Source: Candidatus Bathyarchaeota archaeon
Lineage (GTDB): Archaea > Thermoproteota > Bathyarchaeia > 40CM-2-53-6
Assembly: GCA_005888735.1 (NCBI GenBank)
Contig: VBBN01000030.1
Span: 92,302 to 156,301, forward strand
DNA length: 64,000 nucleotides
Reading direction: 5' to 3'
In this document: positions 12,026 through 43,658 of the stretch, in pieces
Position numbering within the stretch: the stretch's first letter is position 1
How the letters are laid out: each line of letters opens with the position of its first letter
The notes under the pieces: generated by a model
What the model was told of the DNA's origin: nothing
The model's database searches: none
Seen by the model: the letters and a program-made list of their open reading frames with translations, nothing else
Program-made: the position numbers and the translations under genes

Positions 12026-12592
12026 CTAGACCGTGAGGCCTTTCTTAGGGTCGCCTTTCGGCTCATACTTCAATGTGATAGCTGCTGAACGATTTTCAAG
12101 CTGGACCCCTTTCTTCTTCGGTGTAACCGCAACAGGCGTATACCCGCTGATTATCGCATAGGAAGTCGTCTCGTGTCCATTTTCCGTGCAGCGGAGTTGC
12201 AGCTTGAACAGTGGCTCTCCATGTGTAAAAACCATGTGCGTTTGCTCGGTGCCGACCACTATAGCGGGGCCTGAACACGTTGTGCAGGCGAGTTCTCCGT
12301 GCTTTGCAATTTTGAGGCCGCAGTCAGGACACCAGACGTCCTCTTCGGGGCGTTCTACGAAAATGGACTGCCATACGCCGAGGTGTTTTCTCGACCCGCA
12401 TTCCTGCCACTCCTTCTCAGTTAGCCGCGTAGGCTTGTATGTCCAAGAGGCTTCTTCCTTCCAACGGGTGAAGTGTTCTGTTCCTTCTTCGCAGTCCTTG
12501 TGGTAGAAGATTCGGGCCCTATCGGTTGTGAAGACAGCTGAAGCGAGTTCCTCCCTGTGAATGCTTTTTCCGCACCTAGCGCAGGTCTCCAT
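12026..12592 (-). CDS. Hypothetical zinc-ribbon protein
   Basis: 188 aa with paired Cys motifs METCARCGK, WCPDCGLK and CTTCSGP. Confidence 0.65.
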   Translation of the reverse strand: METCARCGKSIHREELASAVFTTDRARIFYHKDCEEGTEHFTRWKEEASWTYKPTRLTEKEWQECGSRKHLGVWQSIFVERPEEDVWCPDCGLKIAKHGELACTTCSGPAIVVGTEQTHMVFTHGEPLFKLQLRCTENGHETTSYAIISGYTPVAVTPKKKGVQLENRSAAITLKYEPKGDPKKGLTV

Positions 12593-27730: not shown

Positions 27731-28121
27731 TCTCCTCCTCGGGGTTCTGTAGAAGCTTCACCATTGCCCTAGGAATGTCGGCGGCGGCCTTGTCCGAATG
27801 AACCATCAGGGTACGCTCCGAAATGAACCCGCTCCTTCTTACGACAATATCCCTGGGATGAGAGAGGGTAAGCGCTTGGGACCCCCGAGCATGGACAGTA
27901 AAGGCGTGGTCTCCGACCTTGAGAATTAGAATTCCGCGGCCAAGATTACTTGACAATATTCTCTTAACTTCAGAAGGAAGATCGGCCAGCCCGTGAGAAC
28001 TTTCAACCGCAACAACGCAGTCCGCCCTGGTCGTTAGACTGCGGTCGGTCGTTATCTCAAGAGTCGTAGGGTGAGTGGAGAGCACTGCGCGGTGCCCCCG
28101 AGCAGTGATGACAAATGACAA
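27690..28121 (-). CDS. DUF371 family protein
   Basis: FVITARGHRAVLSTHPTTLEITTD...LTLSHPRDIVVRRSGF. Confidence 0.75.
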   Translation of the reverse strand: MSFVITARGHRAVLSTHPTTLEITTDRSLTTRADCVVAVESSHGLADLPSEVKRILSSNLGRGILILKVGDHAFTVHARGSQALTLSHPRDIVVRRSGFISERTLMVHSDKAAADIPRAMVKLLQNPEEEISIEIHASLQAQS

Positions 28122-28223
28122 TTTGGAGGTTTCCTGACCGCGACCCTAATATTCCTAACAGACGAGACCTTTCCCCTGGGGGGATGAAACAGGCTCAAAG
28201 ACTCTGCCAGGCAGCGGGAACGT

Positions 28224-28877
28224 ATGGTCAACAGTCTAGTCGTGGAAGGTCTTCTTCGCAAACCGAGCGTGATAGAAGCGATGAGGAAGGTGCCTAGGGA
28301 ATTCTTTGTTCCCGCAGACCTCCGCGCCGAATCTTACGGCGACTCTCCCCTCCCCATAGGCCATGGGCAGACGATCAGCGCGCCTCACGGCTGACCAGCC
28401 GGGCGTAACATGGTCGCAATAATGGACGAGGCCTTGGAGCTGGAGGAGGGAATGAGCGTGATGGAGATAGGGGCGGGTAGCGGGTACCACGCCGCGACCA
28501 TTGCAGAGCTAGTGGGGCCAAGAGGCCACGTTTTCACGATTGAAAGGCTAGAGAGCCTTGTCCAATTGGCCCGTCGAAACCTTGACCTGGCGGGCTATTC
28601 CGAACGGGTGACGTTGGTCCTTGGTGACGGGACCGTCGGCTACCCAGATCGAGCTCCCTACGAGAGGATTCTCGTGACCGCCGCAGCCCCCGACATTCCT
28701 CGTCCACTAGTTGACCAGCTGGCGTTGGAGGGGCTCATGCTCATCCCTGTAGGCGACCGCTTCTTCCCACAGGAACTGGTGCGTGTTAGGAAGACTAGAG
28801 ATGGGGTGGTGGATCGTCGGAATCTGGGGGGTGTAGCGTTTGTCCCGCTTGTCGGCCAGCATGGTTTCAGGAACTAG
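28224..28877 (+). CDS. pcm: Protein-L-isoaspartate O-methyltransferase, interrupted by a predicted 21-nt BHB intron (28387-28407)
   Basis: Exon 1 MVNSLVVEGLLRKPSVIEAMRKVPREFFVPADLRAESYGDSPLPIGHGQTISAPH; exon 2 MVAIMDEALELEEGMSVMEIGAGSGYHAA... Confidence 0.85.
28387..28407 (+). other. Predicted BHB (archaeal tRNA-type) intron in pcm mRNA
   Basis: CGCC-TC|A-CGGCT-GACC-AGCCG-GGCG-TA|A: 4-bp central helix CGCC/GGCG, two 3-nt bulges, 5-bp inner helix; contains in-frame TGA; excision restores SAPHMVAIM. Confidence 0.75.
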
Positions 28878-29908
28878 CCGAAAAATGATTCGAGAGTTTT
28901 CTTCTCACTCTCCACAGCGAACCCTGCTTTCGCCTTTGTAACAGCGTTGCGGACCCTTTCTTCGCTGAAGTCGCGGTCGCCGCAGAGAAATTTCACCAGT
29001 CCTTCGATATCTGGTTCTTTCCAGCGAAGGCTATAGTTTGTTGTGACGTCTGGATTGAGAAATATTTCCCTAATTCTGCGGAGCTCTGGTGGGGGGCGAA
29101 AGTCGGGACTTGCCTGAGCAATGCTGTCAATGCTTCCTCGTTCGCGGATTAGCTTAAGGGCGGTTTTGGGTCCAATACCTTTGAAACCGTCGGGGTTGAA
29201 ATCGGTGCCTATCAATATTCCAAGGTCCACGAGCTGCTCTCTCGAGAGTTGGAGTTCACGAAGCGCGGTTTGAAGGTCTACGGTCTCCGGGTCGACCTGA
29301 ACATATGCCTGTTGCATTGGTAGTTTTCGTCGGCCGCTTATCGCTAGATTTCTCACCAATCGATTGGCTCCAAACAGAATGGAATCGAAGTCTTGGCTCA
29401 CAGCAGCCCATACGTCCCCTCGTGCCGCCATTATTGCCGCTTGAGCTTCTCCCTCGGACGGGGCTTGCACGTGTGGAACGCCAAGTAGGTCCAAGACTCT
29501 AATCGAGTCTTCTACCATCATGTCCTTCAAGCTCGACGTCGCCTGCGCGTACCTCTTCGCCTCCTCGACCCGCCCTGAGGTCACAGCAGCCTCGTACTTG
29601 ACGATAGCTTCCTCCTTCACAGCCCTCCGCCGCTTTATCTCAACCTCTTTCAATGCTGGGGGCCTTCCGTCGAAAACATAGACGAGCTTGATGCCCCTCT
29701 CCGCTAGATTCGTAGTACGGTAAAGGAGGCCGCTGAGATGACTGGTTACTCTGCCCTTCCTGTCCATCAAGGGGGTTCCGGTCGGCCCCCTGATGATTGC
29801 TAGAAACTGGTAGAGGGCATTGTAAGCGTCGACTGCAAAGGTCTTTCCAGACAGATCATCCAGGGAGACTTTCACTCGTGGGATGAGGTCGGCTAGGTCT
29901 ACGCCCAA
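28874..29908 (-). CDS. fen: Flap endonuclease 1
   Basis: FAVDAYNALYQFLA...YVFDGRPPALK...EGEAQAA; C-terminal PIP-like KKTLESFFG. Confidence 0.94.
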   Translation of the reverse strand: MGVDLADLIPRVKVSLDDLSGKTFAVDAYNALYQFLAIIRGPTGTPLMDRKGRVTSHLSGLLYRTTNLAERGIKLVYVFDGRPPALKEVEIKRRRAVKEEAIVKYEAAVTSGRVEEAKRYAQATSSLKDMMVEDSIRVLDLLGVPHVQAPSEGEAQAAIMAARGDVWAAVSQDFDSILFGANRLVRNLAISGRRKLPMQQAYVQVDPETVDLQTALRELQLSREQLVDLGILIGTDFNPDGFKGIGPKTALKLIRERGSIDSIAQASPDFRPPPELRRIREIFLNPDVTTNYSLRWKEPDIEGLVKFLCGDRDFSEERVRNAVTKAKAGFAVESEKKTLESFFG

Positions 29909-41069: not shown

Positions 41070-41819
41070 TTGGCGAAAACGGGACCCACGGAAAAGACCC
41101 TCCTGAGATCCATACAGCGAAACGGCTGCATTCACCTTGCCCTCATAGATCCTGAGAAGCCACTCGAGTCACTCCCGGAGACAGTCGGGGAGCTGCAGAA
41201 GTTTGGAACAACTGCAATCATGGTAGGCGGCTCCACTGTGACCTCTTCAAGCGAGATCGACGCCACCGTCAAGACGATAAAGGCAAACTCTTCACTCCCA
41301 GTGATACTATTCCCGAATGGTCTACAAGGAATTAGCCGCTTTGCTGACGCCATCTTTTTTATGTCAATGCTCAACTCCTCGAAGCCCCAGTACATTACCG
41401 GCACCCAGGCCATGGGTGCCCCCATAGTGAAACGGTTCAGTCTCGAAGCAATTCCCCTCGGGTACATATTGGTCGGAGAAACCAACACGGCTGTGAGCAA
41501 AATTAGTGGGGCGGAAAAGGTACCTTACTCGAGACCGGATTTGGCCCAGGCCTACGCCCTTGCGGCGCAATACCTCGGGATGCGATGGGTCTACCTGGAG
41601 GCCGGGAGTGGCGCCGAGACACCCGTAACTGCGGAAATGGTTAGGAAAGTAGTATCGTCGGTCGAAATCCCAGTAATCGTCGGAGGTGGAATCAGAGAGC
41701 CCAAGCAGGCCGAAGAACTCGCCAAATCCGGGGCGAAAGCACTGGTCACCGGGACAGTTCTCGAAATAGAGGGGACGAGTCAGGTGAGTAGGATCATTGC
41801 TGCTCTAGGCCGGGAGTAG
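41070..41819 (+). CDS. Geranylgeranylglyceryl phosphate synthase
   Basis: HLALIDPEKP; YLEAGSGAETPVTAEMV; VIVGGGIREPKQAEEL; TTG start. Confidence 0.93.
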   Translation: MAKTGPTEKTLLRSIQRNGCIHLALIDPEKPLESLPETVGELQKFGTTAIMVGGSTVTSSSEIDATVKTIKANSSLPVILFPNGLQGISRFADAIFFMSMLNSSKPQYITGTQAMGAPIVKRFSLEAIPLGYILVGETNTAVSKISGAEKVPYSRPDLAQAYALAAQYLGMRWVYLEAGSGAETPVTAEMVRKVVSSVEIPVIVGGGIREPKQAEELAKSGAKALVTGTVLEIEGTSQVSRIIAALGRE

Positions 41820-41822
41820 CCA

Positions 41823-43658
41823 ATGGTCGAAGGCTACCGGCCGGGGGGAGGGATAGCAGGAACTGTTCACGCTTTCAACTTCATCCGAAGAATAAGTTTC
41901 CCAACAACCGCACAGTTAGTGTCCATGTTTTGTACCGAGGTATTTCTCCCTGCGGCCCTCGCTCTACCTCTCTCAGGGCTTGAACTTGCCACATCATTCA
42001 TCATTCCGGCCACAGTAATTATTCTCCCGTCACTAGTTGGCGAATTGCTAAACGCGAAGGTTTTCCTGCGAAGTGACGCGGTCCTCGATTTTCGACGACT
42101 GATGGGAGTCGAGCTGCTCTGTTGGGCGCCACTTCTCGTTTTGTTGCCGCTGGCCTCTGCGGCCACGTCGATTTTCAAATCTAGCGTGCTCTGGACCGAC
42201 GGCCTTCTGATGACCGTCACAATTTCCTTGCCCGTCAGATTTCTCACAATGTTTTCAATGCCGATTGCAGCTCAATGGAAGAGATTCACCGCAGCCACGC
42301 TCGTCCCAGCTCTGTCAATTCTCGCATATTTCTACGGGTTGTCCTTTCATCATATTCTGACAAGTTCAGCACTGTCTCAAACGAGCGTCCTATTCCTGTC
42401 AAGCGTTGCACTGTCAACGGTGGGCGTAATAGGAATACTTAGGGGGGTTGACAAGTCCGGCTCGCACCGAATCGGTGATGCTCCCCTGGCCCTCTTCCGC
42501 GCGTTTCTAGAGCATTGGCTGGAAGGTGAGAGTAAACCCCTAGAGTCTCGCCTCGCCCTAATCGGATCTCAGGCTAATGTTGAGACCTCTATTCTGGCGT
42601 TCGAGGGGAATCAAACTCAAAGCAGAGGGTGTATTGTCCTCTCCAGGTTCCACCCCGGCCCCTACAGAAACCTAGGCAGCGGAGGCCTCCCATCTAGGCT
42701 GAAGGCCGCCATTGCATCCTACAATGGCGCTATCGCCTTAATCCCCCACAGCATCTCAAATCACGAGCACAACATCATTGCTCAGGAAGATATCGCTCAA
42801 CTCATAGAAGGAACTGAGAAAGCGTACCCGACTGCAGTTGATGTCACAACAGCATCCCGCATGGTTCGGGAGAGGGTCGGTGATGGGCAAGCCAGTGCCC
42901 AGTGTTTTGGGAAGACGGCTTTGATCACGTTGACACTTGCTCCAAGAAGCATGGAAGACCTCCCACTCGAAGTAGCTCAATCCGTTGAAGCTACTGCACT
43001 TGGGAAGGGAGCGAAAACTCTTGTCATCGACGCCCACAATTCACTTGCTGGACCGACGAAAATTTCCCAAGAACAGGCAGCAGTTCTAACAGAGGTAGCC
43101 ACAAAGGACTTAGGAGTATGTATGAGCCTCCCACAGGAGACCTTCAAGATGGGAGTTGCTAGCGATCCTCTCAGGGAGTTCTCGCTCGAAGATGGGATAG
43201 GACCGGGAGGCCTTTCCATTCTAATACTCCAAGTGGGTGATCAACTAGCCGCTTATGTGACAGTCGACGGCAACAATATGCAAACCGGGTTCAGGGAGAA
43301 GGTTCTGAATGCACTCAAAGCACTTGGGATTGATGACGGTGAGGTCATGACAACAGACACCCACCTGGTCACGGGGCTCGTAAGGTCGCCGCTCGGGTAT
43401 CATCCTGTTGGCGAACAGATGCGGCAGGAGTTGTTTGTCGAGAGGTTAGTGGCCACGGCGAGAAGAGCAATCAATGAAATGGAGCCAGCTTCAGTGGGAT
43501 ATTCCAGTTTCAGCCTGAACCTTCGAATTTTGGGTTCAGAAACGTTCCAATCAATTACCTCGTTCGTCGGAGGCACGGCCCGAAGAATTGGCCGGTCATT
43601 CCTCTGGCTTGAAATAGTGGTGTTCCTAGCCGGCCTCGTCATCCTAGGCTTTCTGTGA
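41823..43658 (+). CDS. DUF2070 family membrane protein
   Basis: 611 aa; N-terminal multi-TM region, soluble part with SRFHPGPYRNLGSGGLPSRL and VIDAHNSLAG, C-terminal TM. Confidence 0.85.
   Translation: MVEGYRPGGGIAGTVHAFNFIRRISFPTTAQLVSMFCTEVFLPAALALPLSGLELATSFIIPATVIILPSLVGELLNAKVFLRSDAVLDFRRLMGVELLCWAPLLVLLPLASAATSIFKSSVLWTDGLLMTVTISLPVRFLTMFSMPIAAQWKRFTAATLVPALSILAYFYGLSFHHILTSSALSQTSVLFLSSVALSTVGVIGILRGVDKSGSHRIGDAPLALFRAFLEHWLEGESKPLESRLALIGSQANVETSILAFEGNQTQSRGCIVLSRFHPGPYRNLGSGGLPSRLKAAIASYNGAIALIPHSISNHEHNIIAQEDIAQLIEGTEKAYPTAVDVTTASRMVRERVGDGQASAQCFGKTALITLTLAPRSMEDLPLEVAQSVEATALGKGAKTLVIDAHNSLAGPTKISQEQAAVLTEVATKDLGVCMSLPQETFKMGVASDPLREFSLEDGIGPGGLSILILQVGDQLAAYVTVDGNNMQTGFREKVLNALKALGIDDGEVMTTDTHLVTGLVRSPLGYHPVGEQMRQELFVERLVATARRAINEMEPASVGYSSFSLNLRILGSETFQSITSFVGGTARRIGRSFLWLEIVVFLAGLVILGFL

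Follow-up and report, generated by a model that had tools for sequence, protein, structure and literature searches.

A predicted bulge-helix-bulge intron in pcm mRNA of Bathyarchaeia, with candidate introns in three further genes of one genome

We identified a 21-nt insert in the pcm gene of a Candidatus Bathyarchaeota archaeon that is almost certainly an archaeal bulge-helix-bulge (BHB) intron, predicted to be removed from the mRNA by the tRNA-splicing machinery. pcm encodes protein-L-isoaspartate O-methyltransferase, a protein-repair enzyme, and lies within the 64,000-nt stretch of DNA that we analysed (hereafter, the window). An earlier note on this DNA had proposed splicing of this one mRNA by that machinery, a proposal supported here by a conserved and covarying BHB, by genes for EndA and RtcB, and by an interruption of cbf5 at the experimentally proven site. 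The extent that the note envisaged was too small: the pcm intron is clade-wide, and three more genes of the genome are interrupted.

The pcm locus and its insert

The pcm reading frame runs from an ATG at 28224 to a stop codon at 28875-28877 and contains a single in-frame TGA (Table 1). The frame, the TGA and the helices, bulges and loop of the insert all lie where the earlier note had placed them. Excision of the insert creates the junction CAC ATG and restores the motif SAPHMVAIM, as the note had claimed, within the joined sequence ...GQTISAPHMVAIM.... The joined protein matches PF01135 across residues 2-205 (6.4e-65, 219 bits), the unjoined pieces scoring 47 bits (exon 1) and 157 bits (exon 2), and its alignment with archaeal Pcm proteins of solved structure, which bear a SAPHM or SAIHM motif, extends from end to end. 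Full-length pcm is present in a single copy in the 2.39-Mb draft genome.

Table 1. Features of the pcm locus (window positions) and predicted BHB introns elsewhere in the genome (contig positions)
Feature	Position	Strand	Basis or remark
pcm exon 1 (predicted)	28224-28386	+	54 codons and first base of the His codon; PF01135 match
Predicted 21-nt BHB intron of pcm	28387-28407	+	excision repairs SAPHM exactly; site common to 54 loci
pcm exon 2 (predicted)	28408-28877	+	remaining His codon bases to stop codon; PF01135 match, ORF 28410-28877
In-frame TGA within pcm intron	28392-28394	+	translation
Central helix, 5' strand CGCC (exon 1)	28381-28384	+	4/4 pairs in every intron-bearing locus
5' bulge TC/A, predicted 5' splice site after 28386	28385-28387	+	3 nt in all loci; cut between nucleotides 2 and 3 by rule
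Inner (intron) helix, 5' strand CGGCT	28388-28392	+	compensatory changes at every inner pair
Intron hairpin loop GACC	28393-28396	+	fold
Inner helix, 3' strand AGCCG	28397-28401	+	fold, covariation
Central helix, 3' strand GGCG (intron end)	28402-28405	+	pairing in relatives, covariation
3' bulge TA/A, predicted 3' splice site after 28407	28406-28408	+	3 nt in all loci
Predicted tyrS BHB intron, 21 nt with TAG	L321, C5:47992-48012		YWGFECSG^MMHIGQGL
Predicted polB paralogue BHB intron, 24 nt with TAG	L293, C51:46598-46621		LKWILVCS^FGYLGF, conserved motif B of family-B DNA polymerase
Predicted cbf5 BHB intron, 23 nt	L351, C65:121855-121877		splits catalytic Asp codon between letters 1 and 2

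The insert and its flanks form a 4-bp central helix bordered by two 3-nt bulges, one per strand. Folding of the single sequence was rejected as proof of an intron, since the hairpin is unremarkable by itself (z -1.30, not significant; 19 of 200 shuffles folded as well). Beyond the BHB, the earlier note had described a weak outer helix. The best fold contains a 6-bp one (28372-28377 paired with 28411-28416), with an internal loop between it and the BHB; in relatives, a 5-pair version is 85% paired with zero compensatory change. This exonic helix is thus semi-conserved without covariation, and we regard it as unproven. (αβ)2 EndAs are known to cut relaxed as well as strict BHBs (PMC6379350). A search of 27900-29100 against Rfam (E ≤ 1) gave no match. 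Group I and group II introns are defined by a catalytic RNA core; given this result and the length of the insert, 21 nt, we rejected a reading of it as an intron of either group.

We propose that, in the pcm transcript, exon 1 would pair with the 3' end of the intron to form the central helix, both strands of which carry a 3-nt bulge, and that an (αβ)2 EndA would cut each bulge after its second nucleotide. RtcB would then ligate the exons to give CAC ATG (His-Met) and an enzyme of 210 aa. Translation of unspliced mRNA would end after 56 codons, ahead of the SAM-binding domain.

Conservation of the insert in relatives and alternative explanations

We surveyed relatives by a PCMT search of 121 genomes, including that under study, and by a scan of public genomes that covered Bathyarchaeota MAGs, Bathyarchaeum tardum and others; the genomes compared are draft metagenome assemblies. 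Inserts at exactly the codon interrupted in the window were found in nearly every member of the family and in numerous families elsewhere in the class. We located 54 insert-bearing loci by splice position alone, with no filter for pairing; some represent the same contig in two collections. Strikingly, all 54 have perfect central helices (4/4 pairs) and 3-nt bulges, and all 54 splice to SAPHM with both exons open. A phylum-wide covariance-model search added further loci, in which the BHB and SAPHM are likewise kept, including loci outside the class in families f32, f33 and f42. In intron-less relatives SAPHM is uninterrupted and there is no scar, as in GCCCCCCACATGG.

The pairing is maintained by covariation. 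RNAalifold, given 30 distinct sequences, predicted unaided the central and inner helices together with the 3-nt bulge. In the named BHB structure, 97.3% of cells are paired, as compared with 81.0% in shuffles and 26-39% in slid registers, and 52 cells carry compensatory changes, as compared with 13.3 in shuffles; the alignment rows are related, so that the shuffles overstate significance, whereas the slid-register controls retain the relatedness. Double-sided changes occur at 7 of the 10 pairs, and the central helix is found as CGCC/GGCG and as CACC/GGTG. A stop codon shared by relatives in which the pairing is not conserved had been named by the earlier note as evidence against an intron. We found the opposite: the pairing covaries while the length and sequence of the insert change. 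We conclude from the covariation that the pcm BHB structure appears to be under selection. A scan of 820 kb of the genome for BHBs that join open reading frames returned about 34 candidates; hence, structure alone would not prove the pcm intron. Chance is excluded because the conserved motif is repaired exactly and because the structure is conserved and covaries in relatives.

The same comparison bears on other explanations of the insert. At 21 nt, a multiple of three, it could in principle be translated, with the TGA recoded or read through, to yield a Pcm with seven extra residues. However, the inserts of the 54 loci are 20-48 nt long, many of them of a length not divisible by three, and the many relatives whose inserts shift the frame (20, 22, 23, 26, 29, 31, 32, 34, 35 and 40 nt) refute this reading for the clade. 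Moreover, the stop codon in relatives may be TGA, TAA or TAG, some inserts have no in-frame stop at all, and the conserved SAPHM motif would be broken; we consider translation of the insert hardly credible. Programmed bypassing, in which the ribosome would skip the hairpin on an RNA that stays unspliced, accommodates inserts of any length that fold as hairpins. Translational bypassing requires matching take-off and landing codons, yet these match in only 1 of 38 distinct inserts, and the invariant 3-4-3 geometry of the BHB, with cuts between nucleotides 2 and 3, is a feature of the endonuclease that has no role in bypassing. Bypassing is therefore very unlikely.

An internal stop codon in a draft genome might also indicate a decaying pseudogene or an assembly error, but independently assembled genomes of many genera share a structured insert at this codon, both exons are open and conserved, and the genome has no other pcm; there is next to no likelihood that either applies. 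It is highly improbable, too, that the exons are expressed as two proteins. The ORF at 28410-28877 does open with an ATG, but this codon is the conserved Met of SAPHM and is present in intron-less relatives as well, the N-terminal part of the fold would be lost by the split, and the covarying bulged helices would be left without a role. Splicing at a BHB is thus the reading that we retain, and we infer strongly, from sequence, that the pcm RNA is transcribed, cleaved and ligated.

Splicing machinery and further predicted introns of the genome

The genome encodes a catalytic EndA α subunit (L142, C34:84456-84704; 147 bits against EndA of A. pernix, 3p1z), a separate β subunit (L143) and RtcB. 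The catalytic endonuclease and the ligase that an EndA-processed intron requires are thus both encoded, and the EndA is predicted to be of the heteromeric (αβ)2 type. Judging by the alignment and by what is generally known of EndA, we take the α subunit to retain the active-site Tyr, His and Lys. The gene for the α subunit and pcm share a contig, the former lying about 36 kb upstream.

We looked for BHB introns in 1.15 Mb of the 2.39-Mb genome, about half, and added searches of gene families, which together identified predicted introns in tyrS, a polB paralogue and cbf5 (Table 1). Of the roughly 34 candidates in 820 kb, the three that join conserved motifs are pcm, polB and tyrS. The scan undercounts BHB introns, since its filter missed cbf5. 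When joined, tyrS matches NF006330 with 396 bits. Its intron occurs at the identical codon in 17 of the relatives fetched, not counting the genome itself: 14 members of the family and three genomes of family f4. In these the length is 21-29 nt and the pairing has changed, some having one non-standard pair among the four of the central helix. The polB paralogue, by contrast with its relatives, is interrupted only here: we found no intron in any of the relatives examined, which suggests that this intron is probably a recent gain. The cbf5 intron boundary coincides with the site given for the experimentally proven crenarchaeal intron, and cbf5 is also interrupted in several other Bathyarchaeia; this intron serves as an internal positive control. 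In Bathyarchaeum tardum the cbf5 insert is 21 nt long and the pcm insert 30 nt. Hence, a single genome appears to have at least four mRNA BHB introns, in pcm, tyrS, the polB paralogue and cbf5.

Two further BHB candidates in the window were rejected. A BHB-like hairpin at 41809-41845 lies at the junction of two adjacent genes, presumably a GGGP synthase-like and a DUF2070-like gene, which splicing would fuse; a candidate at 12040 on the minus strand also joins two adjacent genes. We judged both to be due to chance. ARAGORN proposed tRNA-Leu genes with introns of 38-39 nt at two loci (L211, 8950-9066; L216, 1826-1962), with uncertain boundaries. Neither proposed intron, examined as an internal control, showed a strict BHB; hence, tRNA introns lend no support.

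Relation to known BHB introns and turnover of the pcm intron

The closest known system is the intron of cbf5 pre-mRNA in Desulfurococcales and Sulfolobales (Watanabe 2002; Yokobori 2009, PMC2738675). Like the pcm intron, it is a short BHB in a protein-coding gene (16-44 nt in the table of Yokobori 2009, PMC2738675) whose codon position is fixed and which particular lineages have lost; its splicing depends upon EndA, as is predicted for pcm. The present case differs from the crenarchaeal one in the host genes (pcm, tyrS and polB), in the clade, and in the presence of several introns per genome. It lies outside the Asp-codon site of cbf5, although the genome's own cbf5 has an intron exactly there. 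Splicing of cbf5 is experimentally proven in Crenarchaeota, whereas that of pcm is deduced from sequence. BHB introns of archaeal pre-tRNA and pre-rRNA share with the pcm intron the BHB geometry and, as predicted for pcm, the EndA cleavage sites and ligation by RtcB, but the host of the pcm intron is an mRNA, whose exons must restore a reading frame. The BHB sites of Haloferax HVO_1309 likewise involve EndA processing of an mRNA; in that case the cuts sit in the 5' UTR (PMC7714728), whereas the pcm intron is inside the coding sequence.

As of 2020, the cbf5 mRNA of Crenarchaeota stood alone among archaeal mRNAs in being reported to have an additional BHB intron (PMC7714728), and our search of the open-access literature found nothing on mRNA introns in pcm, tyrS, polB or Bathyarchaeia. 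The mechanism, EndA-mediated splicing of cbf5 mRNA, is already known; the host genes, the clade and the occurrence of several mRNA introns per genome are new. Our analysis suggests that archaeal mRNA splicing is commoner than the single reported gene would indicate, and adds pcm, tyrS and a polB paralogue as putative hosts of BHB introns in a widespread, mostly uncultured class. Gene callers will truncate or miss intron-bearing genes, including those for a tRNA synthetase and Cbf5.

The pcm intron is widespread in Bathyarchaeia and occurs in a few lineages outside the class, having been gained or lost several times at a single site. A quick tree of 131 pcm rows, 61 with the intron and 70 without, requires at least 13 changes of state, four of which are forced by well-supported branches, and family f11 alone contains both intron-bearing and intron-less pcm. 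We rejected a single intron clade (AU test, p about 1e-9, on the quick tree and with the group picked after viewing it). The pcm genes of L054 and L059 group with those of Methanodesulfokora and neighbours (support 96); the intron may therefore be older than the class or have moved. The most economical reading is that an old intron was repeatedly and precisely lost, with transfer or repeated gain at the site as alternatives. Yokobori et al. likewise found an old intron with repeated loss in cbf5 (PMC2738675).

More tentatively, Bathyarchaeia and their neighbours might keep a living system of mRNA introns that relies on the tRNA-splicing machinery, in which old introns (cbf5, pcm and tyrS) are lost precisely and new ones arise (the polB paralogue). 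This would imply an active route of gain, for which reverse splicing or a mobile BHB element might serve, and splicing could also have a regulatory role; we consider it a conjecture that is more likely to fail than to hold. The presence or absence of introns at fixed codons, together with one apparently recent gain, opens the gain and loss of non-spliceosomal mRNA introns to direct testing. Bathyarchaeum tardum, which is grown in enrichment culture, has both the pcm and the cbf5 intron.
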